From the NCBI GenBank assembly GCA_016781505.1, contig JADDQF010000104.1, forward strand, positions 1 to 40,804: a DNA stretch of 40,804 bases, in the 5' to 3' direction. Below are positions 23,298 through 35,702 of the stretch, one piece after another. How positions within the stretch are numbered: the stretch's first letter is position 1; each line of letters starts with the position of its first letter. The stretch is from a bacterium. Lineage in GTDB: Bacteria > Chloroflexota > Chloroflexia > Chloroflexales > Kallotenuaceae. A model generated the notes under the pieces. That model saw only the letters and a program-made list of their open reading frames with translations, ran no database searches and was not told the origin of the DNA. Made by a program: the position numbers and the translations under genes.

Positions 23298-25289
23298 ATG
23301 TACGACGAACGTGTATACCGCTATCCGCGCCGCATAACGTGGCCGATCGAGCTCCTTTGTGGTCTGGTTGTGCTGTGGGCCGCACTGGACGTTGCCCGTG
23401 TGGCCTTGTTGCTGCTGTGGCAGCGCTGGCCCGTCGCGCCGTTCTTGCTGAACCGTGTGCCGGGGCTAGAGCAATTGATCGCCTGGCTGGAGCGGACGGG
23501 CCCACAACAGCTCACTCCCCAAAGCTTTGTCACGCCATTGTTGTGGCTACTGGTGACACTTTTTGGCGCGCTGATGCTGCGTAACACCCTGCCCACGGTT
23601 CGTTGGAGTCCCCGTGGTCTGCTGGTGGCCTTTGGCGGCGATTGGGTTCCCCTGCGCTGGGAAGGGCTGCGCGCACTGCGCGTTACCGATACGCCCGATG
23701 GCAAGCGCTTTGTTGTGCTGGTGCAGGCCGACGGGCAAGACCTCACGCCGTGGCATCGCCTGTATAGCTTTTTGTACCGCTTCAGCTTGAAACGCGGCTT
23801 TCTGATCAGCTCGGCCATGCAAGGCGGCGAGCAGCTGCTGCAAGATATTATGGGCGAGATCACGCGGCGGAACAGACTGGGCGAAAAGCTACAGGTGGAG
23901 ATGACTGAGGCTAGCCCATCGCCGCTGTTTGGATTGTTGCTTGGTGATCCGGGCTGGCTCAAAGGTGGCGCGCAGGATGAGCAGCCGATCTTTCAGCCCG
24001 TCGCGACCGCGGCTACGCTTGGCAGTGCGGCAGCACTGACGATGCCGAGCATGGGTGGTTTAGCGGGAGTGCCCACGCCTACTTCAGCTGTAACGAAACA
24101 AGCTTCTACGCCTGCCGCGCCCACGCAAGCTCACGATGCGATTCGGTCCGACTATCCGCGCGCGGTGCTCCTCGGGTTGAACGTGCTCACGGTGGTGATT
24201 ATTGGCTTTGCCTTGTGGCGTTATCTTGTGGCCTGGACGACGTTTTTGATCTTCAGCTTTCCCCGCCTGCGCGACGCCGCGCTGTTCCGCAATGTGCCGA
24301 TTGAGCCGCTGGTGTCACACTGGGGCCTGCTGATTGGCGCGCACGTTGCCTTGCTGCTGGCGGCGGTCTTTGTGGTGCTGCTGCGGCATCTTTTCCCGGC
24401 GGTCGCGTTGGATAGCCAGGGGCTTGTCTTTACCGCGTTCGGGCGGTCGCGTCATCTCGCCTGGGAGCACGTCAGCTTTGTGAAGGCCACCAATATCCGG
24501 GCTGAGCAGCACATGATTTTGGTCGAGGCTGAGGGCAAGCATCTGCCCTGGTACTACCTGCTGGGCTCGTGGCTGTATGACGGCGGCAGTGGTCGGGGAG
24601 CCTTAATTTGGCCGATGCTGCCACAGTTCGAGCCCTTGATGCAGCGGCTGGCATTGGAGTTGACCCGGCGGCAGCAGCCGGATCAGCCCGTTAAGCTGCG
24701 CGATGATCTGCCGGGCTGGGTGCTGCTGCTGGTCGCTCGCCCGGCGGAGGCCCTTGATCGGCTGGTGCGGCTCCAGGATGGCGAACGGGATATGCCACAG
24801 GCTCTGGAAGCAGCTTCCACGCTCCGGGCTGCCATGCGCATGATGTGGGTCGCCGCCGCGCCTGCCGGGCTGTTGTTGCTGTATTGGATGATGTATAAGG
24901 GCCAGATCTTGTTGTTGCAAATACCACTCTTGCTGTTCCTGGCGATCGTGTGGGGTGGCGCCGAGTGGCCGTTGGCTTCGTTCCTGGCTTCGTCGCTGGA
25001 TCAAGTTATGGGAGCGGGCAACAAAGGTTATCAAGGCTTATACATGTATCCCACGGCGCAGCTTCCACGGCTGCTGCCGCTTGGCCTGGCGATCCTGCTG
25101 ACGCTGATGGGCTTTCCAACCCTGGCGCTTGTGGTATGGGGCGCGGGGATTGCTTGGTCAGGGCTACTAACAGCAGGGCTGTGGGAAGCCTTGTATGGCT
25201 GGCGTGGGCCACTCTTGTTGTGCGGCTCGATTATGACGGTGTTTTTCCAAATTCTGACACTGGTCGGGGTGCTCGTGCTGCGCGCATAA
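23298..25289 (+). CDS. Large membrane protein with duplicated PH-like module
   Basis: 663 residues, no named family recognised. It contains two repeats, each a pair of membrane helices followed by a soluble PH-like domain. Helices at about 14-40 and 78-96 precede residues 101-195 (SPRGLLVAFGGDWVPLRWEG, ending GEITRR). Helices at about 292-312 and 346-366 precede residues 369-460 (DSQGLVFTAFGRSRHLAWEH, ending LELTRR). A linker at about 225-285 is rich in Ala, Thr and Pro. The C-terminal third (from about 510) has five or six helices, resembling a Yip1-type bundle. It starts at ATG 23298 after GGAG. A strong terminator follows. The bPH resemblance is judged by eye; the function is unknown. Confidence 0.75.
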   Translation: MYDERVYRYPRRITWPIELLCGLVVLWAALDVARVALLLLWQRWPVAPFLLNRVPGLEQLIAWLERTGPQQLTPQSFVTPLLWLLVTLFGALMLRNTLPTVRWSPRGLLVAFGGDWVPLRWEGLRALRVTDTPDGKRFVVLVQADGQDLTPWHRLYSFLYRFSLKRGFLISSAMQGGEQLLQDIMGEITRRNRLGEKLQVEMTEASPSPLFGLLLGDPGWLKGGAQDEQPIFQPVATAATLGSAAALTMPSMGGLAGVPTPTSAVTKQASTPAAPTQAHDAIRSDYPRAVLLGLNVLTVVIIGFALWRYLVAWTTFLIFSFPRLRDAALFRNVPIEPLVSHWGLLIGAHVALLLAAVFVVLLRHLFPAVALDSQGLVFTAFGRSRHLAWEHVSFVKATNIRAEQHMILVEAEGKHLPWYYLLGSWLYDGGSGRGALIWPMLPQFEPLMQRLALELTRRQQPDQPVKLRDDLPGWVLLLVARPAEALDRLVRLQDGERDMPQALEAASTLRAAMRMMWVAAAPAGLLLLYWMMYKGQILLLQIPLLLFLAIVWGGAEWPLASFLASSLDQVMGAGNKGYQGLYMYPTAQLPRLLPLGLAILLTLMGFPTLALVVWGAGIAWSGLLTAGLWEALYGWRGPLLLCGSIMTVFFQILTLVGVLVLRA

Positions 25290-25346: not shown

Positions 25347-25376
25347 AACACCAGGAGCAAACCTGCTCCTGGTGTT
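25347..25376 (+). terminator. Intrinsic terminator, perfect 13-bp stem
   Basis: AACACCAGGAGCA pairs with TGCTCCTGGTGTT around the loop AACC, followed on the plus strand by TGTCCTT. It lies between the convergent ends of the duplicated membrane protein gene and the hydrogenase-like operon. On the minus strand no U-tract follows. Confidence 0.8.
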
Positions 25377-25381
25377 TGTCC

Positions 25382-26203
25382 TTAAGCCCCCAGCCAGATA
25401 CGCCCCGCCAGTGCGACGGCAGCCAGGGGCAGGACGATGAGCCAGCAAAAGCGGAGCGCGTGCCGGATCGTCCGATGTACTGCACCGCCTTTGAGGCCGC
25501 GCCCAACCAGCGCCACCGCCAAGGCCAGCCACACTTTCAAGCCTAGCTGCTGCCACCAGGACAGCCCTGGAGCCGTCACAAACACACTCGCGATCAGCGT
25601 GATCAGCAGCACACTGCGGAGATCATGGGACCAGCGGGCGACACCGATGTCGGCATGAGGCAGGTGGGAGTCGGCGTCGCCCAAGCCTAGCCCACTTTCG
25701 CCCCCAAAAGGCTGCCAGCGTGCCGCTGCGGGTAGGGCTAGCAGGGCGGCCGCAGCGCCCAGCAACAGTGGTCCCAGCTCCACCAGCGTTTCCCCCCGCC
25801 AGCCAAACCCGACCAGCAGCGCAATCCACAGCACGGCGCGGCCACTGACTCCGATCTGCGCCTCACGCACCGCCGCCCGGTTCACTGCTGGCAGCGAGGA
25901 CAGCAGGCCAGGAAGCAACGCGACCAAAAAGCAGCCCTCGATGAGGGCCCATGTCCGCCAAAGATCAAACGGCGGGACGGGCGCAAAAGGACTAGCCGGC
26001 CACGGCAGCAGCGCAATCGCCACCAGGGCAAGCACAACCGACAGGGCGTGCGCGAGCGAGCCTTGACCAAGCAGAGCCAGCCATGTTTTCCGGATGGCCT
26101 GGGTGCCGCGTGCTCCGCGGCCCAATGCAGCAATCAGCACCAGCGTCAGCGAACACACCCACAACAATCCAGGATAAACAAACAATTGAAAGAGGGTGCT
26201 CAT
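25382..26203 (-). CDS. HyfC/NuoH-like membrane subunit, divergent
   Basis: 273 residues with about eight membrane helices. It is the last gene of the hydrogenase-like operon and is read as the membrane arm anchor (NuoH/HyfC/HycD type), which in relatives joins the catalytic module to the proton-translocating part. The match is weak and partly positional: the opening FQLFVYPGLLWVCSLTLVLI, VNRAAVREAQIGVSGRAVLW in the middle, then DLRSVLLITLIASVFV and LGLKVWLALAVALVGRGLKG, which correspond to the late helices of HyfC. The conserved loop with acidic residues of NuoH is not recognisable. ATG 26203 is chosen because it opens directly into a helix; the frame extends to 26227. An alternative is an unrelated membrane protein. 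Confidence 0.6.
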   Translation of the reverse strand: MSTLFQLFVYPGLLWVCSLTLVLIAALGRGARGTQAIRKTWLALLGQGSLAHALSVVLALVAIALLPWPASPFAPVPPFDLWRTWALIEGCFLVALLPGLLSSLPAVNRAAVREAQIGVSGRAVLWIALLVGFGWRGETLVELGPLLLGAAAALLALPAAARWQPFGGESGLGLGDADSHLPHADIGVARWSHDLRSVLLITLIASVFVTAPGLSWWQQLGLKVWLALAVALVGRGLKGGAVHRTIRHALRFCWLIVLPLAAVALAGRIWLGA

Positions 26204-26276
26204 ACGCCTACACCAGTGTGGGGACACAGCAACTTGTATGCGTGTCGATGTTGATACGTTCGTGCCGGTCGGCAGT

Positions 26277-26663
26277 TCATGTCGCGATGATGCGCGGCTG
26301 CCGGGCGGCCTCCAGCAGCGCTTCGGCTACGGTATCCACGATGGGTGGGCAGCCATCGACTTTACGGCGGGCCTCGATGTTGGGCTGCGCCGCGATGCCG
26401 CCTTTGCCAAACGGATAGCCGTCAATGGCACAGCGTCCGACCACCACAACCGGTAGTCGACCCTGAATCAGGGTTGTATAGGTTGCGAGCAAGGCGCCGC
26501 GGCTTGTCGTCGGAACACTGCCGGTAAGCACAACAACATCGGCGGCTTGGGGCGTGGCGGCCCACGCTAACTCGGGCGTACCTTCGACGGCTGCCCAAAC
26601 TTCCGCCGCGCAGGCTCCGCAATCGCCGGCGCATAGATGAAACACTCGCACTGTCCGTGGCAT
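26277..26663 (-). CDS. Hydrogenase small subunit / NuoB-like iron-sulfur protein
   Basis: 128-residue protein of the NuoB/HyfI family, which holds the iron-sulfur cluster nearest the active site. The ligands for one 4Fe-4S cluster are present in the hydrogenase arrangement: Cys15 and Cys18 (DCGACAAEV), Cys78 (VVVGRCAIDG) and Cys105 (DGCPP). The LTGSV turn of the family is also there. Complex I NuoB uses a tandem Cys-Cys instead, so this is closer to group 4 hydrogenases. An extra Cys11 lies just before the first pair. The start is ATG 26663, with GGAG at 5-base spacing. The gene lies between two membrane subunit genes of the same operon. Confidence 0.8.
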   Translation of the reverse strand: MPRTVRVFHLCAGDCGACAAEVWAAVEGTPELAWAATPQAADVVVLTGSVPTTSRGALLATYTTLIQGRLPVVVVGRCAIDGYPFGKGGIAAQPNIEARRKVDGCPPIVDTVAEALLEAARQPRIIAT

Positions 26664-26739
26664 GGGTTGCTCCGTGGTATCCGCCGATGAGCTGCCGCAA
26701 GTCAGGCAATACGCTTACGCAGATGTTGCTTGCTTTGGC

Positions 26740-28263
26740 TCAGCGGCTCAGAAAAGGAAATGCTCGCGCGATGTCGTCAAGCTCCATGACAACTGGCTGT
26801 GGCCACAGGCCGAGGCCCAGGCTGAAGCTGGCGAGCAGCACAATCAGGATCCGCACGCCCCATGGGGCGTATGGTACAGCCACCATACCCAGCCGGTCCA
26901 GATCGTCTGAAAACAGGCTCCGTATTGTGGGCATGTCGCGCGGCTGCAACAACATGCGCGCAATCAGTCGAGCCCCGGCTAGACTGCTCAACACGAGTGC
27001 GGCTGCCACCAAGCTGCCGACCAGCACGCCCTGACCTTGCATTGCGTGGATCAGCAGGAGGCGCGGTGTGAAGCCGCTTAGCGGCGGCACACCCAGCAGC
27101 AGCAGGATGCCGACCAAAAATGCGAGAGCGGCGAGGGAACGCTCCCGTAGCGCGCCGGCTTGCTCGCGCCGACCGGGAACGTCCCGTTCGAGCAGGGTTA
27201 GCCCAAGGGCGATCAGCGCCATGCTAAACACATGATTAAGTGCTCCCAGCAGCACCGCGCCGATGCCGGCGATCGTGGACAGGGCCATCCCGATCGCCAA
27301 CAAGCCAAGATTGGCAATCGCTAAACCGGCAATCGCCCGCCGCGCCTGGAGCGTGAGCAGGGCTTGTGCGCTCCCGCCGAGGACTGAAAGACCGCCCAGT
27401 CCAAGGATCAAGTGGTGCCCCGTAGCATTGCCGGCAAGCAACTGTGGCTGCGTTTGCAGCACGACCAGCAGCACCGGCAGCGCCAGAATCGTCAGCATGC
27501 CGACATGCAGAAACATCGCTGCGGGCGGTGTTTCATCCAGCACATCAGGCAGCCACCAATGAAAAGGGATCAGGCCGAAACGAATGCCAAAACCGACCAA
27601 GAGGAGGCCAAAGACGGCATTGGTAAGCGTTGGCCCGCTTCTGGCCAGCTGGGTACTGAACGCAGTTGCCAGCACAACGCCAATCAACAGCAGCACGCCG
27701 CCGAGTGCTACCAGCAGTGTGTATTTAAGCGCCATACCAAGCGTTTGTGGTCGGAGCAGCACGGCGCTGCCGGCGGGTTGGTCCACGAGCTGGAGGCTGC
27801 CAGCCAGACTGGCCAGGAGCAGCACGACCGCAGCCACAAACGGCTCCTGCACAATCAGGATTGCCGCGCTGAGGCCGACGATCAGCAGCAGAATCGCAAC
27901 AAAATTTTCGCCCTGGGGCACAAGCGTCGTCAACAGCGCAAGCGCTAGGCTGCTTAAGCTGAATGTTGCCAAAAATAAGCGACCGAGCTCATTGTAGTTG
28001 ATGCTTAGATCCAAAAGCTGCGCCGGCTGATTAATCGGCACGCTCAGCGCCAGCCACAGCTCGGACGCAAGTACAGCGACGCCCAGCCAGCCAGTCAATG
28101 TGCTATCCCGGCGCAGGACGAAGGCGCCGACGGCTGCGGCTAACGGAAACAAAATCAGAAGAAGGTAGATCATGGCGTGCGTAACGGTGTTCGTGCGTAC
28201 GGTTCCGAGCTGCTTAAAAAGGATCTGATACCGGTTGCGCCTTTCACGCCATCCGGTTGCCAT
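26740..28263 (-). CDS. Antiporter-like (NuoN/HyfB/HyfF type) membrane subunit
   Basis: 507 residues with about 14 membrane helices, of the proton-conducting membrane transporter family shared by complex I, Mrp antiporters and hydrogenase 4. The best marks are ALKYTLLVALGGVLLL and FGIRFGLIPFHWWLPDVLDE followed by PPAAMFLHVGMLTI. The lysine that normally sits in the FxKxxxxPFH element is Arg here. The glutamate usually found in the WE-type helix 5 is not seen, with LLLASLAGSLQLVD in its place. ATG 28263 lies three bases after the stop of the upstream gene and may be coupled; ATG 28173, which opens straight into a helix, is an alternative start. Neither has a clear ribosome site. Confidence 0.82.
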   Translation of the reverse strand: MATGWRERRNRYQILFKQLGTVRTNTVTHAMIYLLLILFPLAAAVGAFVLRRDSTLTGWLGVAVLASELWLALSVPINQPAQLLDLSINYNELGRLFLATFSLSSLALALLTTLVPQGENFVAILLLIVGLSAAILIVQEPFVAAVVLLLASLAGSLQLVDQPAGSAVLLRPQTLGMALKYTLLVALGGVLLLIGVVLATAFSTQLARSGPTLTNAVFGLLLVGFGIRFGLIPFHWWLPDVLDETPPAAMFLHVGMLTILALPVLLVVLQTQPQLLAGNATGHHLILGLGGLSVLGGSAQALLTLQARRAIAGLAIANLGLLAIGMALSTIAGIGAVLLGALNHVFSMALIALGLTLLERDVPGRREQAGALRERSLAALAFLVGILLLLGVPPLSGFTPRLLLIHAMQGQGVLVGSLVAAALVLSSLAGARLIARMLLQPRDMPTIRSLFSDDLDRLGMVAVPYAPWGVRILIVLLASFSLGLGLWPQPVVMELDDIARAFPFLSR

Positions 28264-28266
28264 AGG

Positions 28267-28971
28267 TTAATGCTGCTCAAATAAGCTCCCAAACTCAAGT
28301 GTGTGCAGGCGGCCATACAGCAGGCCGCTGAGGTAGGCGACGATGACGGCCAACATCAGGCTCAGTAGCTCCAGCAGGCCGACATGCAGCACACTCTGTG
28401 GAGCTGCAACGCCGAGGTACAACAACTTGGCGCTGGCGACTAACACCAACATGCCCAGCCCAAGCTTCAGCACATCCAGCGCCGTGATCAGGATCAGCAA
28501 GCCGCAGAGCAACAAGAAAATCCAGCCGGCATCCACGATCTGTTGGCGCGCGACGGGGTAGAACGTCGACAATAGCCATGTGGCTAAGCCAGCCAGGACC
28601 ACCCCGCCGAATGGCACAATCGAAGCGCCCCAGCGTCCCGTCACAAGGCCACGTTGGTGTTGAGCACGTCGTGCGGCTCGGCGGAGCTCCAGCAGCGCAA
28701 ACTCGTCAAGCTCTGCGGGGCTATAATCCTTGGTAAAGTTAAGGGCAGTGATGAGCAGAATTAATCCAGCGCTTAGGGCTGCGACCGCCTGGGCGATCAG
28801 CAGCGGCCAAACCGTCGAGCCTTTGACGACGTTCACGGTTTGCCAGGTTAATCCAATGCGGCATAGTTCGGTGCCGAGCAGCAGTGGGATGGTCCAGCGC
28901 CAATCGTTGACCACGACAAGCGCGCCAACCACAAGTACTAAGCTGATCAGGAGTCCAACTGTTATAGCCAT
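28267..28971 (-). CDS. HyfE-like membrane subunit
   Basis: 234 residues with six to seven helices. It resembles HyfE of hydrogenase 4, which is NuoK/MnhC-like at its end. The C-terminal part, with LKLGLGMLVLVASAKLLYLG and LLELLSLMLAVIVAYLSGLL, and the earlier LLLGTELCRIGLTWQTVNVV and WPLLIAQAVAALSAGLILLI carry the NuoK-like glutamate helices. A charged loop (about residues 83-112, LDEFALLELRRAARRAQHQ) separates the two halves. The start is ATG 28971, three bases after the stop of the preceding gene. It ends three bases before the next ATG, so the three central genes are tightly coupled. Confidence 0.7.
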   Translation of the reverse strand: MAITVGLLISLVLVVGALVVVNDWRWTIPLLLGTELCRIGLTWQTVNVVKGSTVWPLLIAQAVAALSAGLILLITALNFTKDYSPAELDEFALLELRRAARRAQHQRGLVTGRWGASIVPFGGVVLAGLATWLLSTFYPVARQQIVDAGWIFLLLCGLLILITALDVLKLGLGMLVLVASAKLLYLGVAAPQSVLHVGLLELLSLMLAVIVAYLSGLLYGRLHTLEFGSLFEQH

Positions 28972-28974
28972 GCT

Positions 28975-30690
28975 TTATTGCGCCGCCAGCAGCAACACTG
29001 TGATGAGGCTGACGACGACGAGTGCGAGATAGTAGCGCCGTTCCAGTAGGTGCCACGGAGCGGAGAAGCGCTCCCGCTGGCGCGCCAACCACTGCCACAG
29101 CGCGTGTAATGGTCCAGGCTCGGGCACGACCAACGGCCACAACATGGCGCGGAGCGCCACAAACGGCAACGTCCAGCCCGGCTCTTCATCGAGCGGCTCG
29201 CCACCGCCGAATTGCACCCCTGGGCGTGGATGCCGGAGGGCGCGGTTGACCAGGCCAAAGGCCAGCAACACGATCAGGGTCGTCACGGCCGTTGAAATAA
29301 TGGCAGCCAGCGGCGGAGCCTGCGGCCCGGTAACGGAGGGATCGCCCAAAATCCATTGCCAGATATTGTCCGGTACGAGTCCTCCGAGCAGCAGTCCGGT
29401 CATCAGCAACAAGGGCCAGCCACCGCCGCGCTGCTCAACGGCGGCCAGCGGCGAGCGGAAGGCCGGCCGACGAAAAAACGCAACCAGTGTCGGGAGATAG
29501 CTGAGCGCCAAAAGCGTAGAGCCTGCCAGCAGAACGGGTGGGAGCCATGGCTGTGCGGGTGCTAACAGCAGCACCACCCGTCGAAGCGCATACCCAAGCA
29601 GCGGCGGCAGTCCCGCGCAGGACATCGCCGCCAAACCATACGCGATACCGGCGCGGCGCAATGGTTGTGGCAGCGGCGGCAACGTTGCAAACCGATCATC
29701 GCGCGTGACGCGCTCCAATTGTCCGGCCGCGAGCGCAATGCTGGTGCTGGTCACCGCGGTATGGGCCAGCAGCCCGATTGCGATAGGGCCGGCGGCCGGT
29801 TGGCCGGTGCCGAAGGTCACCGCCAACAACGCAAGCTGCGCAACGAGCTGCCCGCTAAACGCCTCCATCAGCCGGCGTGCCGCCACAGCATTCACCGCGC
29901 CCAGCAGGAGCCCAGATACACCAACCAGCAGTACAGCGGCGGTCGTTTGCTGTGACCATGTGGGGGCAGTTTCGGTTGCATAGCGGACAAATAGATAGCC
30001 ACTCAACAGGGGTAGGCCCAACGCCGTGGTCGGGGCTCGTACCAGCAGCGGGGCTGTCGTGGTGGTGCCCCAACGCGGTGCGAGGCCAATCAGCAGCGCG
30101 CAGCCGGCCAGCCAAGGCCCTCCGAGCACCTGGGCACCCGCCAGTGTTGGAGTGGCTGCATACACGAGCACCGCCAACGCCAAGACCAAGATCGGCAGGC
30201 CACTCAAGGTAGCCTCACGGTTGTGAGCTGTGGTGGTCTGCTGCATGATCGTGCCGCCCATCCAGGTGGTGCCAAGACCAAGCCATACGCCGATGGGGGT
30301 GGCGCTGAAGATCGTCAGCAAGCCGCCGAGCACCAGGATCAGCAGCCCGGCAAAAACCAGCCCGAATGCGCGGGTGGTTCTGCCGAATGTTGAGGCCAGG
30401 CCTCCGCTGATGATAATTGCGCAGAGGAGCCAGATGCTGCTGAAAAAGGTGGGCAGGCTATCGCTTGCGAAGCGCAGCTCAAGCGCGGTGTCGTTCAGCG
30501 TGCCCCACACGAACCCGGTCTGTGGCGGCAGGTGGCCGCTCAGCTGCGCCGCGGGCAGGCCCAGCAGTGTGACGAGCCCCAGGGTTGCGAGCAAGCCGAG
30601 GCTGAAGGTGCGGACCCGGCCGCTCAACGCCCAGATGGCGAGCGCCACGAGGAGCAGGCCCAGACACAAGCCCAACAGCAACACAGCCAC
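28975..30690 (-). CDS. Second antiporter-like membrane subunit, degenerate
   Basis: 571 residues with about 15 helices and a soluble C-terminal tail. It is of the NuoL/HyfB type by length, topology and operon position, but strongly diverged. The segment that should carry the helix 7 lysine and the PFHxWLPDA element reads IGLAPRWGTTTTAPLLVRAP and lacks both. IAIGLLAHTAVTSTSIALAA and CAGLPPLLGYALRRVVLLLA are the recognisable later helices. I use GTG 30690, which lies two bases after the large-subunit stop and has CGAGGA six bases upstream. The open frame reaches 30717, which would overlap the large-subunit gene by 25 bases. The C-terminal tail includes a positively charged helix near a last membrane span. 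Confidence 0.72.
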   Translation of the reverse strand: MAVLLLGLCLGLLLVALAIWALSGRVRTFSLGLLATLGLVTLLGLPAAQLSGHLPPQTGFVWGTLNDTALELRFASDSLPTFFSSIWLLCAIIISGGLASTFGRTTRAFGLVFAGLLILVLGGLLTIFSATPIGVWLGLGTTWMGGTIMQQTTTAHNREATLSGLPILVLALAVLVYAATPTLAGAQVLGGPWLAGCALLIGLAPRWGTTTTAPLLVRAPTTALGLPLLSGYLFVRYATETAPTWSQQTTAAVLLVGVSGLLLGAVNAVAARRLMEAFSGQLVAQLALLAVTFGTGQPAAGPIAIGLLAHTAVTSTSIALAAGQLERVTRDDRFATLPPLPQPLRRAGIAYGLAAMSCAGLPPLLGYALRRVVLLLAPAQPWLPPVLLAGSTLLALSYLPTLVAFFRRPAFRSPLAAVEQRGGGWPLLLMTGLLLGGLVPDNIWQWILGDPSVTGPQAPPLAAIISTAVTTLIVLLAFGLVNRALRHPRPGVQFGGGEPLDEEPGWTLPFVALRAMLWPLVVPEPGPLHALWQWLARQRERFSAPWHLLERRYYLALVVVSLITVLLLAAQ

Positions 30691-30692
30691 GG

Positions 30693-31769
30693 CTAATCCT
30701 CGGCGCAGGTCATGCACGCCCCCACCGAGGCGACGATAACTGCCGCGTTCTCGACGAGCTGACCGGCGAGCAGTGCGCGCAGGACCAACCGGTGCGGCGC
30801 GCCAAGTGCTTCCAGTTGGAGGGTAGTGAGGCGGGTGCCGTCGCTAACCAGGGTGTGGCGAATCGGTCCAGCTGGTGCTTCGACGGTGACGCTGCTGGTG
30901 CCGGGCGGCAACGCTTCCACGACCTGGCCTTGCCATGCTCCGGCCGGCAGCTGTTCCAAAAGGCGCTGCACAAGCTGCAAGCTATCAAACGTTTCCAGCA
31001 GCAAGAGCATAATGCGGGCGTAGGTGTCGCCGCCGGTTTGGGTAACCTGCGCCACCTTGACCTCGGCGTACGACGCGTAGGGCGCATCCGTGCGCAGATC
31101 GCGCTTGATCCCGGACGCGCGGCCAACCGGCCCACTCACGCCAAGGGTTTCGGCTGCGGGCTGGAGCAGGGTGCCAACGCCAACGACCCGCCGGGTAAAG
31201 GCGCGGCGCGTGATCGTGCGGTCGATTAGGCGGTACAGCATAGCCGCGGGCTTTCTGACCAGCCGCAACATAGCTGCGCGCTCCTCGTCGGTTAAATCGA
31301 CCTGAATGCCGCCCGGTCGGGCAAAATCGACCACCAGCCGATGCCCGGTCAGATGCTGCATGGCCGCCAGCACCCACTCCCGCAGCGCGAAGAGCTGTCG
31401 CTGGACTTGCCCAAGGCCCAGCAGGTCAAACACAACCGCCGTGGTTTGGAGGTGCGATGCAGCGCGCTCTAGCTCGGCGGCCACGGTGCGCAACACCTGC
31501 GCTCGCGGCGGCACGGATAATCCCGCCAATGCTTCAAGGGCCATGGTCCAGGCGAGCGCGTGATGATGGGAATGAACGCCGCAAATACGATTGATCAGGG
31601 TGTAGCTGCGGGCAAGATCGAAGCGCCGGATGCGGTCAGCGATATTGCGCGTGCTGTAACCGTCGCGGTGCTCGATATCTTGAATAATATCGCCATCAGC
31701 GCGCAGCACGATCCGCTGGGGGGACCGCAGCGCAGGATGGAATGGACCAAGCGGGAGCAGATAGCTCAA
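30693..31769 (-). CDS. [NiFe]-hydrogenase-like large subunit with altered metal site
   Basis: 358-residue protein of the hydrogenase large subunit/NuoD superfamily (HyfG/HycE/EchE branch). The N-terminal half shows PLGPFHPALRSPQRIVLRAD, GYSTRNIADRIRRFDLARSY and the L1 motif RICGVHSHHHALAW (residues 61-74). Canonical L1 is RxCGxCxxxH: Cys63 and His70 are kept, but the second cysteine position is His66. The C-terminus keeps an L2-like CMTC pair (Cys352, Cys355), ends three residues later, and lacks the usual DP before it. So three cysteines and a histidine replace four cysteines. There is no N-terminal NuoC/HycE domain. The start is TTG 31769, with GGAG about 10 bases upstream and a strong promoter at 31799-31828. 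Confidence 0.85.
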   Translation of the reverse strand: MSYLLPLGPFHPALRSPQRIVLRADGDIIQDIEHRDGYSTRNIADRIRRFDLARSYTLINRICGVHSHHHALAWTMALEALAGLSVPPRAQVLRTVAAELERAASHLQTTAVVFDLLGLGQVQRQLFALREWVLAAMQHLTGHRLVVDFARPGGIQVDLTDEERAAMLRLVRKPAAMLYRLIDRTITRRAFTRRVVGVGTLLQPAAETLGVSGPVGRASGIKRDLRTDAPYASYAEVKVAQVTQTGGDTYARIMLLLLETFDSLQLVQRLLEQLPAGAWQGQVVEALPPGTSSVTVEAPAGPIRHTLVSDGTRLTTLQLEALGAPHRLVLRALLAGQLVENAAVIVASVGACMTCAED

Positions 31770-31798: not shown

Positions 31799-31828
31799 AT
31801 TATACCATGCAGCCCCATGGAGTGCTAA
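31799..31828 (-). promoter_or_regulatory. Promoter of the hydrogenase-like operon
   Basis: Minus-strand TTAGCA (31823-31828), an 18-base spacer and TATAAT (31799-31804) preceded by TGG, giving a perfect extended -10. It would produce a leader of about 23 bases before the TTG start of the large subunit gene. It separates this operon from the glycosyltransferase genes that end at 31881 on the same strand. Confidence 0.65.
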
Positions 31829-31880: not shown

Positions 31881-33170
31881 TTATGCGCCTTGCGTGTCGG
31901 GGACGGTACGTGAGCTTGGACGTTCGGCATCATGGTGCGGAAGCAGCGCGTCGGCAAGGGCGATAATGCGCTCAGCCCGGCGCCGATAGGTCCAGGGCTG
32001 TGCTTGCTCCGCCGCGGCCTGCCCCAACCGTTCGCGGCGTTGGGGATCGGCGGCCAGCTCCTCCAACGCTGTCCGAAGGTCGTCAACATCGCCGCGGCGC
32101 ACAAAGCGGGCGGCACGCTCATCGATGACCTCACGCAGCGCGGGCAGATCGACGGCGATAATCGGCCGGCCCATCGCCATGTACTCGAAGAGTTTGAGCG
32201 GCGATGCGGTCACATCGGTCACGGTGTCGGGAATGGCGAGCACATCCGCCGCGGCGAGATACTGGGCGACCACGGGCTGGGGCTGAGGCATCACAAACTG
32301 CACCCGCTCCGCGAGGTTAAGGCTGGCGACTTGTTCGCGCAGCGCCGCTACTTCAGCTGGCCGTCCACCCACAAAGATGAGGTTGGCATCCGGTAGTCCT
32401 GCTTGCGCAAACGCTTGGACAAGTCGATCCAGCCCTCGATGGGCAAAGGTCATGCCGGCGTAAACGATCACAAACTGGTCGGGTGGAAGGCCAAAAAGTC
32501 GGCGGGCGGCAGCTCGATCCTGCGGCAGATACACGGTTGCGTCGAACGCGTCGGGGATGACGGCAGCACGCTCTGGTCGCCAGCCGAGCTGGTCGAGCTC
32601 GCGGAGAAAATGGTCGGTCAGCGAGACCACGGCATCCGCACGAGTGAGCGCCACCCGATCCATCAAATGCAGCAGCCCTTCCGCCCAGCGCTCCTTGGCC
32701 CGCGACGGATTGGCGGTCTCCCAGTCGTGCGCCTCATACACGACTTGGGCACCGTACAGCTTGCCGAGCAGCCCGGCCCACCACGCGGCAATCACGATTT
32801 GCCGCGCGTACACCACATCGTAACGCCGACCGCGCAGCCGCTCAAGCAGCAGATAGCCCAGGCACATCCAAGCCCAGGCCGTATGTTCGAGGTAATACAA
32901 CAGCGTTGTTCTGTATAAACGCGAAAGCCGCCCGATGCCCGGCCGGAACAGATGGACCGCGCCGACCTCTGCGAAGCGCGATGGCTCGCGCCACTTGCTG
33001 GGAATCAGGGCCAGGGTCTGCGGCGCGATTTGGCGTAGCTCACGTAAGGTGGTCCAGGTCTGAATGGCGTTGGCCGACTGCAGCATCAGGCTGGTCGGGT
33101 AGGCGAGATAACAGATGCGTGGAGTCTGCTGAGCGGGCTTGGGCTTCGTCATGCGCGGTTCCGATTCCAT
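31881..33170 (-). CDS. GT4-type glycosyltransferase
   Basis: 429-residue GT-B fold transferase of the GT4 group. The N-terminal acceptor domain starts RICYLAYPTS. The C-terminal nucleotide-sugar domain has VIVYAGMTFAHRGLDRLVQA, LIFVGGRP, then ASPLKLFEYMAMGRPIIAVD. The Glu of the final helix is kept, but the first Glu of the usual EX7E element is not, a variant seen in the SPLKLFEYMA subgroup. Two possible starts are ATG 33170 and ATG 33152, neither with a strong ribosome site. It is last in the run of three transferases. Donor and acceptor are unknown; the context suggests a cell-surface glycan or glycolipid. Confidence 0.85.
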   Translation of the reverse strand: MESEPRMTKPKPAQQTPRICYLAYPTSLMLQSANAIQTWTTLRELRQIAPQTLALIPSKWREPSRFAEVGAVHLFRPGIGRLSRLYRTTLLYYLEHTAWAWMCLGYLLLERLRGRRYDVVYARQIVIAAWWAGLLGKLYGAQVVYEAHDWETANPSRAKERWAEGLLHLMDRVALTRADAVVSLTDHFLRELDQLGWRPERAAVIPDAFDATVYLPQDRAAARRLFGLPPDQFVIVYAGMTFAHRGLDRLVQAFAQAGLPDANLIFVGGRPAEVAALREQVASLNLAERVQFVMPQPQPVVAQYLAAADVLAIPDTVTDVTASPLKLFEYMAMGRPIIAVDLPALREVIDERAARFVRRGDVDDLRTALEELAADPQRRERLGQAAAEQAQPWTYRRRAERIIALADALLPHHDAERPSSRTVPDTQGA

Positions 33171-33264
33171 AGTTTGCGGTCAAGCGGTACGGATACAGGA
33201 GCGTGCCGAGGCACAGTTCTGCGACAGCAATCCGTGGCGTCCAAGCTGCGGATGTTTCATCCTG

Positions 33265-34518
33265 CTAGCTCCTGCCCACGGATACTTTTCCAGCCCGGCG
33301 CTGAATCGCCGCGCGAAATACGTTCTCAAGCTCTCCAACGAGCGTATCCTCGCGATAGCGTGTGGCAATTGTCGCCTGACCACCGGCCACAAGCCGTTGC
33401 CGGAGGTCAGCATTGTCCAACAGCTGGAGCACACCACGGGCAAGGTCGGCGGCGTCGTTGTAGCGCGTCAGCCAACCGTTGACGCCATGCTGCACAATCT
33501 CGCTCACCACCGGGATGTCCGTAGCCACCAGCGGGCAGCCGGCCGTCATCGCTTCCAAAAGCGTTAGGCCAAAGCCCTCGTAGCGCGTCGGCGTGATATA
33601 CACATCCGCGGAGCGGTACAGGTTGACCAGGTCTGCGTCCGCTACCCGTCCACGGAGCTCAATTCGGTCGGCCACCTGCAGTTCATGCGCCAGCTGTTGG
33701 AGCTTGGTCTGGTCTTCCCGGTTAAGCCCGGAAACGTACTGCACCGTCGTGGTAGGGTAGCGCTGCACAATGGTTGGCAGGGCGCGCAGCAACAGATCGT
33801 AGCCTTTGCGCGGTGTAAGCTGACCAATAAAGAGCAGCGCCGGTCTGGGCAGAGCGACCGGTTGCGGCGGGAGCGCCTCCATGGCCGCGAAGTCCAACCA
33901 CAGGGGCACCATCTGCTGCGGCTGGGTCAGGCCCATAGCGCGCATCACGTTGGCTTCATACTCCGAGCAGGGCACCAGGACATCGGCGGCTTTTAGCGGC
34001 GCGTGCAGCCAATAGTTGCGCAGATGATCCCGTAGGCGTCCATCACGGCGCGTGCGGCGGAGCACGTCGGCGCGGCTCCACACGATGCGCTCGTACTTAG
34101 GCTGCTCATCCAGCGGATGCTCACGGTCATCCACAACATATCGGTCGTGAAGCGGTCCAAGCCAGGTGTAGGCAGTTGGAATAGCGCGTTGCTTGGCCCA
34201 CTCCGTCGCGCCAAAGGCCAGCACATTCCTGGGGTGCAGCAGGTACAGCACATCAAACGGCCCGGTCGCATCCAGCGCCGAGCGCAGACGATTGTTCGGC
34301 CAATGCCGCACGGGCACGCGTCGGACATGAATGCCATCGATCTGGTCCTGCTCGGCTTGCAGCGCCGGCACCTTCGGATCATGGTAGGCGATATTGACGA
34401 CATGATGCCCGCGCCGCACCAGCGCCCGGCCGATCACTCGTTCGGGCCAGTGCCGAAACTCGTGCGTCACACCTCCCATGCCGATGATCGCGATCCGCAG
34501 TTTGGCCCCTGCTACCAT
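33265..34518 (-). CDS. GT4-type glycosyltransferase
   Basis: 417-residue GT-B transferase of the GT4 group. The acceptor domain starts RIAIIGMGGVTHEFRHWPER. The donor domain shows LLFIGQLTPRKGYDLLLRAL and RVADADLVNLYRSADVYITP, and the EX7E element is complete in YEGFGLTLLEAMTAGCPLVA. ATG 34518 follows a weak GGA. Thirty-eight bases separate it from the preceding gene on the same strand, which suggests one transcript. The substrate is not readable from sequence. Confidence 0.88.
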   Translation of the reverse strand: MVAGAKLRIAIIGMGGVTHEFRHWPERVIGRALVRRGHHVVNIAYHDPKVPALQAEQDQIDGIHVRRVPVRHWPNNRLRSALDATGPFDVLYLLHPRNVLAFGATEWAKQRAIPTAYTWLGPLHDRYVVDDREHPLDEQPKYERIVWSRADVLRRTRRDGRLRDHLRNYWLHAPLKAADVLVPCSEYEANVMRAMGLTQPQQMVPLWLDFAAMEALPPQPVALPRPALLFIGQLTPRKGYDLLLRALPTIVQRYPTTTVQYVSGLNREDQTKLQQLAHELQVADRIELRGRVADADLVNLYRSADVYITPTRYEGFGLTLLEAMTAGCPLVATDIPVVSEIVQHGVNGWLTRYNDAADLARGVLQLLDNADLRQRLVAGGQATIATRYREDTLVGELENVFRAAIQRRAGKVSVGRS

Positions 34519-34556
34519 GCTTTATCCAACGTCATAGATTACGGGTTGCGCACCGC

Positions 34557-35702
34557 TCACGAGCACTGTGGCCGCGTGGCCGAGGACACTAAGCGCTGAT
34601 ACACTGCTTCAACGCGATCGGTCACTGCTTCCCAGGTAAAGAGCCGGTGGACGTGTCTGCGGCCTTCCATGGCGAGCTGCCGGCCAAGCGCGGGGTCGTC
34701 CAGTATGCGCTCGATCGCCGCCGCCAGGGCTGCGGGATTTTGGGCGGGAACCACCAGGCCGCTCTGCCCATCCACCACGACCTCTTGAAAGCCAAGCCAA
34801 TCCGAAGCGATCACCGGCCGCGCGCAGGCCAACGCCTCACACAAGGCCATGCCAAACGTTTCACTGGCAAAGCTGGTCCCAACCACCACGTCGGCCGCAG
34901 CATACAGTTGTGGCATTTGGGCGTGGGGCGTGCTGCCCAGAAATGTAACCTGGCCTTGGAGGCCAAGCCGGGCAACCAGTTGCTCCAACGTCGGGCGGTA
35001 GGTGCCCGCGCCGCTGATCAACAAGCGGAGCTTACGCTGGGGCACCAGCAGGCGTAATGCCTGGATCGCGTATTGAACGCCTTTCCACGGCTGGAGTCGG
35101 CCCACAAACAGGATACCGCGCTCGTCGGCCTGGAGCCAATGGCTCCGCTCGTTTGCATCGAGCAGCTGGGGCTGAAAAAGCTCGGCATCAAAGCCGTTGA
35201 AAACGACCTCCGGCTCGCGGTGGTAGCGTGCTTTCAGGGTGCTGGCGTTGTATCCCGAGCACGAGAGCATCGCATCTGCCGTCTGGGAAAGCGGCTGATC
35301 GAATGGGTAGAAGTCTTCGCCGTGGCCGTGATAAATAACTTTCGCCCCGGCGGCGTGGGCGAGCGGGCCCACCACAAAGTCATAGGGCTTGTGCAGATGC
35401 AGGAGATCAGGCTGGAGCGCAAGCGCGTTCGGGACCGCCGCCGGCATCAGCGACATGCGCTCCAACAGTTTTGTGAGCTCGACATGACGGCGGAACGGTT
35501 TGAAAGCGCGCCACGTCATCCGCTCCACAAACGGAAAGCGTAGCACGCGCACGGCGGGCACACTTCGGCTGATCGTGCCCGCTCCCCCAATAATGGTAAC
35601 GGTGTGGCCGCGCCGCGCCAAATGTCGGCTGAGCTCCCACACAAACGTTTCGACGCCGCCTTCCTTGGTTGTGGTCGTTAAGTTGTACTGAACAATGTTC
35701 AC
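34557..35702 (-). CDS. GT4-type glycosyltransferase
   Basis: 381-residue GT-B transferase of the GT4 group. It opens IVQYNLTTTTKEGGVETFVW, with the typical GGVE acceptor loop. HLHKPYDFVVGPLA and YHGHGEDFYPF follow, then the donor domain ILFVGRLQPWKGVQYAIQAL, TFLGSTPHAQMPQLYAAADV and the EX7E element in ASETFGMALCEALACARPVI. The start is GTG 35702, six bases after the stop of the phosphatase gene upstream, which suggests translational coupling. This is the first of three transferases in tandem. Confidence 0.9.
   Translation of the reverse strand: MNIVQYNLTTTTKEGGVETFVWELSRHLARRGHTVTIIGGAGTISRSVPAVRVLRFPFVERMTWRAFKPFRRHVELTKLLERMSLMPAAVPNALALQPDLLHLHKPYDFVVGPLAHAAGAKVIYHGHGEDFYPFDQPLSQTADAMLSCSGYNASTLKARYHREPEVVFNGFDAELFQPQLLDANERSHWLQADERGILFVGRLQPWKGVQYAIQALRLLVPQRKLRLLISGAGTYRPTLEQLVARLGLQGQVTFLGSTPHAQMPQLYAAADVVVGTSFASETFGMALCEALACARPVIASDWLGFQEVVVDGQSGLVVPAQNPAALAAAIERILDDPALGRQLAMEGRRHVHRLFTWEAVTDRVEAVYQRLVSSATRPQCS

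Follow-up and report, generated by a model that had tools for sequence, protein, structure and literature searches.

A probable hydrogenase-4-derived, Ehr-like membrane complex of the Chloroflexales lacking the canonical proton-pump residue pair

A six-gene block encoding a membrane complex was identified in a contig (JADDQF010000104.1, assembly GCA_016781505.1) of a Kallotenuaceae bacterium from the order Chloroflexales. The whole stretch analyzed, 40,804 nucleotides, is referred to here as the window; the block occupies positions 25382-31769 on its minus strand. In order, it encodes a large subunit (LSU) resembling HycE/HyfG/NuoD (30693..31769, 358 aa, TTG start), a NuoL/MrpA/HyfB-like antiporter subunit (AP1; 28975..30717, 580 aa), a HyfE-like membrane subunit (28267..28971, 234 aa), a NuoN/M/MrpD/HyfF-like antiporter subunit (AP2; 26740..28263), a NuoB/HyfI-like small subunit (26277..26663, 128 aa), and a NuoH/HyfC-like membrane anchor (25382..26227). 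The open reading frame (ORF) of AP2 spans 507 aa, and that of the NuoH-like protein 281 aa with a likely start at an inner ATG near 26203. An initial annotation of the window had placed these six minus-strand ORFs in exactly this order and at these coordinates. It had also described mostly 2-3 base gaps, which overstates the packing: only AP1/HyfE and HyfE/AP2 lie that close, at 3 bp each, and the latter value holds only with the first ATG of AP2, whose homologues begin at the position equivalent to an ATG at 28173, inside the called ORF. As called, LSU and AP1 overlap by 25 bp, while AP2 and NuoB are spaced by 76 bp and NuoB and NuoH by at least 49 bp. A promoter-like site (TTAGCA-18-TATAAT with a TG extension, an extended -10; 31799..31828, minus strand), a consensus match only, lies 30 bp upstream of the LSU start and is the probable operon promoter. 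Directly after the last stop, a 13-bp inverted repeat (AACACCAGGAGCA-GGTT-TGCTCCTGGTGTT; 25347..25376, minus strand) probably marks the transcript end; it has no T run and was not returned by a terminator scan. With these putative signals at its two ends, the block likely forms one operon.

The subunit types named in the initial annotation were borne out by Pfam, profile, and fold searches, with the HyfE-like protein placed by collinearity and position. LSU matches Pfam Complex1_49kDa (E=1e-38), and its closest solved structures in the PDB are HycE of formate hydrogenlyase (FHL) and MbhL, ahead of NuoD; it starts at the NuoD-like domain and has neither a NuoC domain nor a cleavable C-terminal tail. 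AP1 is NuoL/MrpA-like (profile E=5e-25) and AP2 NuoN/M/MrpD-like (profile E=4e-29). Pfam Oxidored_q6 is the family of the short NuoB-like protein (E=2e-7), whose cysteines follow a CxxC...C...C pattern; C15, C18, C78, and C105 are the candidate 4Fe-4S ligands, so that the ligand set of a proximal cluster is present in the window. The NuoH-like protein gave no significant sequence match (Pfam, NCBIfam, PDB profiles, or hhalign against E. coli HyfC); its identity is settled by a fold search, in which the AlphaFold2 model (pLDDT 86) retrieved NuoH/ND1 structures from the PDB at probability 1.00 and TM-scores of 0.65-0.72. For the HyfE-like protein, no significant Pfam, NCBIfam, PDB-profile, hhalign (against E. 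coli HyfE), or PDB-fold match was obtained. Its assignment is supported by position, the gene standing where HyfE would be expected next to an HyfF-like gene, and by alignments to the HyfE proteins of E. coli and of locus L157 that are collinear throughout, though without a significant score. Residues about 85-105 of this protein form a charged, order-specific cytoplasmic loop (LDEFxxxELRRAxRRA) that hardly varies among Chloroflexales; E. coli HyfE and the LSU-free gene trios described below have a shorter version or none. The loop is a possible docking site. The block thus contains the Hyf core set of large, small, NuoH-like, HyfE-like, and two antiporter-like subunits. Neither a ferredoxin (HyfA/HyfH), NuoC, or NuoEFG gene nor a dehydrogenase gene was found within the block in any locus examined, and no HyfA/HyfH ferredoxin gene lies in or beside the window block.

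Homologues of the window-type LSU are present in 59/60 Chloroflexales genomes, and the NuoH-like gene occurs in all 60, as a single copy each. The families compared are presumably a Kallotenue-like family containing the window (f1), Herpetosiphonaceae (f2), Roseiflexaceae (f3), and Chloroflexaceae (f4). Named loci from a narrower LSU-alignment scan, which retrieved Roseiflexus, Chloroflexaceae, and Herpetosiphonaceae metagenome-assembled genomes along with distant Cys-less complexes, agree with the labels of f2-f4. The window's family and Roseiflexaceae both have the genes arranged as LSU-AP1-HyfE-AP2-NuoB-NuoH, most Chloroflexaceae blocks have no NuoB, and in Herpetosiphonaceae the block is split into LSU-AP1-HyfE-AP2 at one locus and NuoB-NuoH followed by two ATP-binding cassette (ABC) genes at another. 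Comparison of the window with two congeners gave dN/dS values of about 0.1-0.3 for all six genes, with the smallest values in LSU and NuoB; this indicates a complex in use. The gene order is shared across dozens of genomes and the operon is kept in four families; together with the purifying selection at the codon level, this places the block beyond chance. Outside the order, only G319, a genome of the same class, gave a strong match to the HyfE-like profile; there, locus L164 carries LSU-AP1-HyfE-AP2 and a Cys-less NuoB. Stand-alone AP1-HyfE-AP2 trios were also observed in other Chloroflexota (L165 7718-11930, L166 7427-11707, L167 6450-10794, L168 7657-11560), with no LSU, NuoB, or NuoH nearby; where examined, LSU-like genes elsewhere in these genomes sit within ordinary clusters of complex I or group 4 type.

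An IQ-TREE phylogeny of 67 LSU sequences, 30 of them from Chloroflexales and five of them NuoD, placed all 30 in one clade (100/100, stem 0.92), sister to the LSUs of mini-complexes from other Chloroflexota (L093/L098; 98/99). This clade falls on the group-4-hydrogenase side of a 100/100 split from NuoD, by which a third complex I was rejected, and it branches apart from HycE/HyfG, from MbhL, and from the clade of Cys-less Hyf-type complexes; a quick tree was concordant. The initial annotation's view of a hydrogenase-4/complex-I-related membrane complex is therefore upheld by subunit homology and the LSU tree, as are its expectations that the large subunit would stand apart from the known groups, here the characterized ones sampled, and that the block would recur in related genomes.

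The catalytic site of NiFe hydrogenases is marked by an L1 motif (RxCGxC..H) and an L2 motif (DPCxxC). In the window, L1 reads RICGVHSHHH (31560..31589, minus strand), with C63 kept, H66 at the second ligand position, and the invariant H70, while L2 contains C352-x-x-C355 (30705..30716, minus strand) within GACMTC, the aspartate being replaced. Three of the four NiFe cysteines are thus kept, with the bridging L1 cysteine replaced by His. At position 66, 5/5 sequences from the window's family have His and 6/6 from Herpetosiphonaceae have Asp; Roseiflexaceae and most Chloroflexaceae carry Cys there, and three sequences Ala or Ser. C63, C352, C355, and H70 are invariant in an 18-sequence alignment; among all 38 LSUs compared, the three cysteines are mostly kept and H70 always. 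The maturation gene HypD was detected in 33/60 Chloroflexales genomes and not found in the window's genome (G000), two complete members of its family (G003, 100% complete, and G005, 99%), G021, Herpetosiphon, and others, with control genomes positive; LSU is nonetheless conserved in genomes without HypD. Copies of LSU with four cysteines occur in HypD-free genomes (f3 g5, L066, L070, L076), which indicates that the LSU site is independent of the NiFe maturation pathway. Judged by its motifs, the window's LSU has a broken NiFe site, as the comparison with Ehr (energy-converting hydrogenase-related) complexes in the initial annotation had implied, and the maturation gene is missing from the window's genome.

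Complex-I-type antiporter subunits carry a glutamate in transmembrane helix 5 (Glu-TM5) and a lysine in helix 7 (Lys-TM7), a pair described as strictly conserved in Mrp (PMC9568556). Neither antiporter subunit of the block has it. In AP1, Glu-TM5 aligns with Gly, Ala, Ser, or Val and Lys-TM7 with uncharged residues in 19/19 sequences (G149 and L209 in the window), leaving the pair in 0/19. In AP2, no counterpart of Glu-TM5 was found in the alignment, and Lys-TM7 is present in 0/18 sequences, being Arg in 17/18 (R228 in the window, 27580-27582). The E. coli controls NuoL/M/N and HyfB/F retain both residues, as do the window genome's own NuoL/M and the Chloroflexota hydrogenase L083. So do Cys-less Hyf-type complexes, and loss of the NiFe site alone need not entail loss of the pump pair. 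Glu/Lys persists in the AP1 proteins of G319 and of trio L168, which suggests a later loss within Chloroflexales; the pair is lost in trios L165-L167.

The electron path has been lost in two lineages. All four Fe-S cysteines are missing from the NuoB-like proteins of Herpetosiphonaceae, and in most Chloroflexaceae the NuoB-like gene is absent genome-wide, a search having found only complex I NuoB. Since these lineages dispense with the electron path, the complex should, in them at least, serve in a way that requires no electrons. The term energy-converting in the initial annotation is doubtful, given the missing Glu/Lys pair and the loss of Fe-S ligands or of NuoB, and the electron donor and acceptor that it left unnamed may be missing because none exist.

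Several known systems invite comparison. Hyf (E. coli hyfA-J) and Hyc share large, small, NuoH-like, HyfE-like, and HyfB/HyfF-like subunits with the block, and HyfE stands beside HyfF (L110); the window block, however, lacks HyfA/HyfH, the NuoC domain, the NiFe ligand set, and the Glu/Lys pair, and its LSU clade is separate from HycE/HyfG. Cys-less Hyf-type/Ehr complexes of Acidobacteria, Elusimicrobia, and Deltaproteobacteria (e.g., L157, L134) have lost the NiFe cysteines as here, and L157 (HyfB-C-E-F-G-I) has the identical six subunits, so the gene subset is not unprecedented, contrary to the initial annotation, which could match it to no named class. Mycobacterial Rv0082-Rv0087 comprises the same six-subunit set. 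The Cys-less Hyf-type complexes differ from the window block in clade (100/100 each), gene order, LSU length (about 530-540 aa versus 358), and retention of Glu-TM5/Lys-TM7. Further loci of this type, with L1 motifs such as RISGTSAFAH, were noted in Chloroflexota, Acidobacteria, Deltaproteobacteria, and others (L101 2837-8121, L102 1088-7166, L126-L161), and they keep the pump pair where checked. The mini-complexes of the sister clade (L093 3114-8469, L098 2462-7210; LSU with 3-4 Cys) combine NuoB, NuoH, and LSU and, like the window block, have no NuoC or ferredoxin, but each has one antiporter-like protein and no HyfE-like gene was seen in them. Complex I, encoded by two nuo clusters in the same genomes, has homologous NuoB, NuoD, NuoH, and NuoL/M/N folds, whereas the block is without NuoA, C, E-G, and I and its LSU lies across a 100/100 branch from NuoD. 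MBS, the membrane-bound sulfane reductase of Pyrococcus, is a group-4 descendant that has lost part of the NiFe cysteines, with two left (PMC7684303); it retains the full Mrp-type module and a catalytic Fe-S cluster, in contrast to the Chloroflexales complex, which lost cluster ligands and pump residues in several lineages. Ehr complexes are defined as group-4-related and devoid of Ni/Fe-coordinating residues (PMC6349859). By its residues, the block shares this negative trait, and it lacks Glu-TM5/Lys-TM7, the residue proxy for redox-coupled ion translocation by Mrp-like subunits, the functional side of the definition. Accounts of Chloroflexus (C. aurantiacus and C. aggregans; PMC3150298, PMC8004040) list two complex I clusters and not this locus, which in C. 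aurantiacus presumably lies near 1.526 Mb, and no published description of the complex was found in the open-access full-text literature. The block thus appears to be an unusual, Ehr-like variant of a known superfamily.

In f2, f3, and f4, an ABC ATPase and permease pair adjoins the NuoH end of the block (e.g., L037 14072-15903; L103 9972-11764), the permease having no Pfam match and an N-terminal FTLxEYLRSGR; this hints at a transport or envelope role. The ABC genes as fixed subunits are unsupported in the window's family. On the opposite strand of the window, convergent with the operon, lies a gene for a 663-aa membrane protein without a Pfam match (23298-25289, plus strand), conserved beside xseAB in the window's family. 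It was rejected as a seventh subunit because of its strand and its presence only in that family. Just upstream of the operon, three family 4-type glycosyltransferase genes are clustered (31881-35702, minus strand).

It is very likely, from the residues lost, that the complex functions neither as a hydrogenase nor as a canonical pump. The overall explanation that we favor, at somewhat better than even confidence, is an Ehr-like complex derived from hydrogenase-4 that has given up both hydrogenase activity and canonical redox-driven proton pumping and has a single-metal site in LSU. The six gene products would assemble in the membrane as a single complex, inherited from an ancestor of the hydrogenase-4/Ehr type, with a soluble LSU and NuoB module seated on a NuoH-HyfE-AP1-AP2 membrane arm. 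C63, C352, and C355, together with Cys, His, or Asp at position 66 and H70, would hold one non-NiFe metal ion (zinc or iron), and binding or chemistry there would be coupled mechanically to the arm, acting as a gated channel, carrier, or scaffold, possibly in cooperation with the ABC exporter encoded alongside in three of the four families. This specific metal-site and transport mechanism is speculative and unlikely to be right in its particulars. Independence from redox chemistry is probable in at least two lineages; for the order as a whole, it falls slightly short of an even chance. Doubtful, too, though a shade less so than the mechanism, is an electron-free machine, the first in the complex I superfamily to keep a hydrogenase-type peripheral arm, in which a single-metal pocket would drive or sense something through a membrane arm devoid of the Glu/Lys channel, with order-wide occurrence and an ABC exporter as partner.

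Several observations weigh against this explanation. A metal site in LSU is most likely on residue conservation, yet all four ligands are gone from the LSU of L023 and several further LSUs miss one. In AP2 the TM7 position is still basic (R228), as the TM12 position mostly is, so ion conduction may survive. The window's family carries its ABC homologue elsewhere (G000:C70:3766-4488), not beside the block. The four NuoB Fe-S ligands are mostly kept in the window's family (L065 lacks one), Roseiflexaceae mostly keep them along with four LSU cysteines, and a redox role in these groups could therefore persist.

The persistence of these NuoB ligands is also what speaks for a working Ehr-type redox pump, in which electrons from a soluble donor would pass through the NuoB [4Fe-4S] cluster to an acceptor close to the former NiFe site, and the membrane arm would move H+ or Na+ with a non-canonical set of residues. 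Ehr complexes, as group-4 relatives without Ni/Fe ligands, are suspected of redox-coupled charge translocation (PMC6349859), and the AP1 of G319 retains the Glu/Lys pair. We nevertheless consider such a pump unlikely, though a serious contender: the pair is missing from both antiporter subunits throughout Chloroflexales, two lineages lost the NuoB ligands or gene and kept the remainder, and none of the genes for a ferredoxin, NuoC, NuoEFG, or a dehydrogenase lies in the block. A secondary cation/H+ antiporter of the Mrp kind, with LSU, NuoB, and NuoH as regulatory add-ons, would suit the affinity of AP1 to NuoL/MrpA and of AP2 to NuoN/MrpD as well as the existence of LSU-free trios; it is improbable in the face of the missing Mrp pair (strictly conserved according to PMC9568556) and because the block showed no homologue of the MrpA C-terminal part, MrpB, MrpE, MrpF, or MrpG.

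In a vectorial CO2-hydration machine, resembling DAB complexes in principle, Zn held by Cys3 plus His, Asp, or Cys would occupy the old NiFe pocket and hydrate CO2, with the antiporter-like arm coupling the reaction to the membrane potential. The variable ligand is Cys, His, or Asp, all common Zn ligands, and antiporter-like subunits are known to serve such an enzyme in DAB complexes (PMC13144422). The block also occurs in heterotrophic Herpetosiphonaceae, however, Pfam scans found no DabA-type protein in it, the AP residues required for H+ flow are lost, and L023 is without any ligand, which leaves this machine quite improbable. A decaying relic without function, suggested by the stepwise loss of ligands, subunits, and pump residues, was rejected on dN/dS and ubiquity and is more improbable still; the ORFs are intact and the operon spans four families. 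Least credible is a functional group-4 [NiFe] hydrogenase. Four cysteines are found in several Roseiflexaceae and Chloroflexaceae, and HypD is not rare in the order, but this identity was rejected on the L1/L2 motifs, with H66 replacing the bridging cysteine, and on the absence of HypD from the window's genome; HypD is also absent from many genomes with four-Cys copies. Two other NiFe hydrogenases of Chloroflexus account for its Hyp genes (PMC8004040).

What the favored Ehr-like complex would mean follows from the setting of its superfamily. Complex I, Mrp, MBH (membrane-bound hydrogenase), and MBS are thought to share the Glu/Lys coupling device and a line of evolution leading from hydrogenase to complex I. 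A complex that Chloroflexales maintain order-wide under selection, although its NiFe site and pump pair are lost and two lineages also lack the Fe-S path, would be a natural experiment in what this scaffold can do without redox chemistry.

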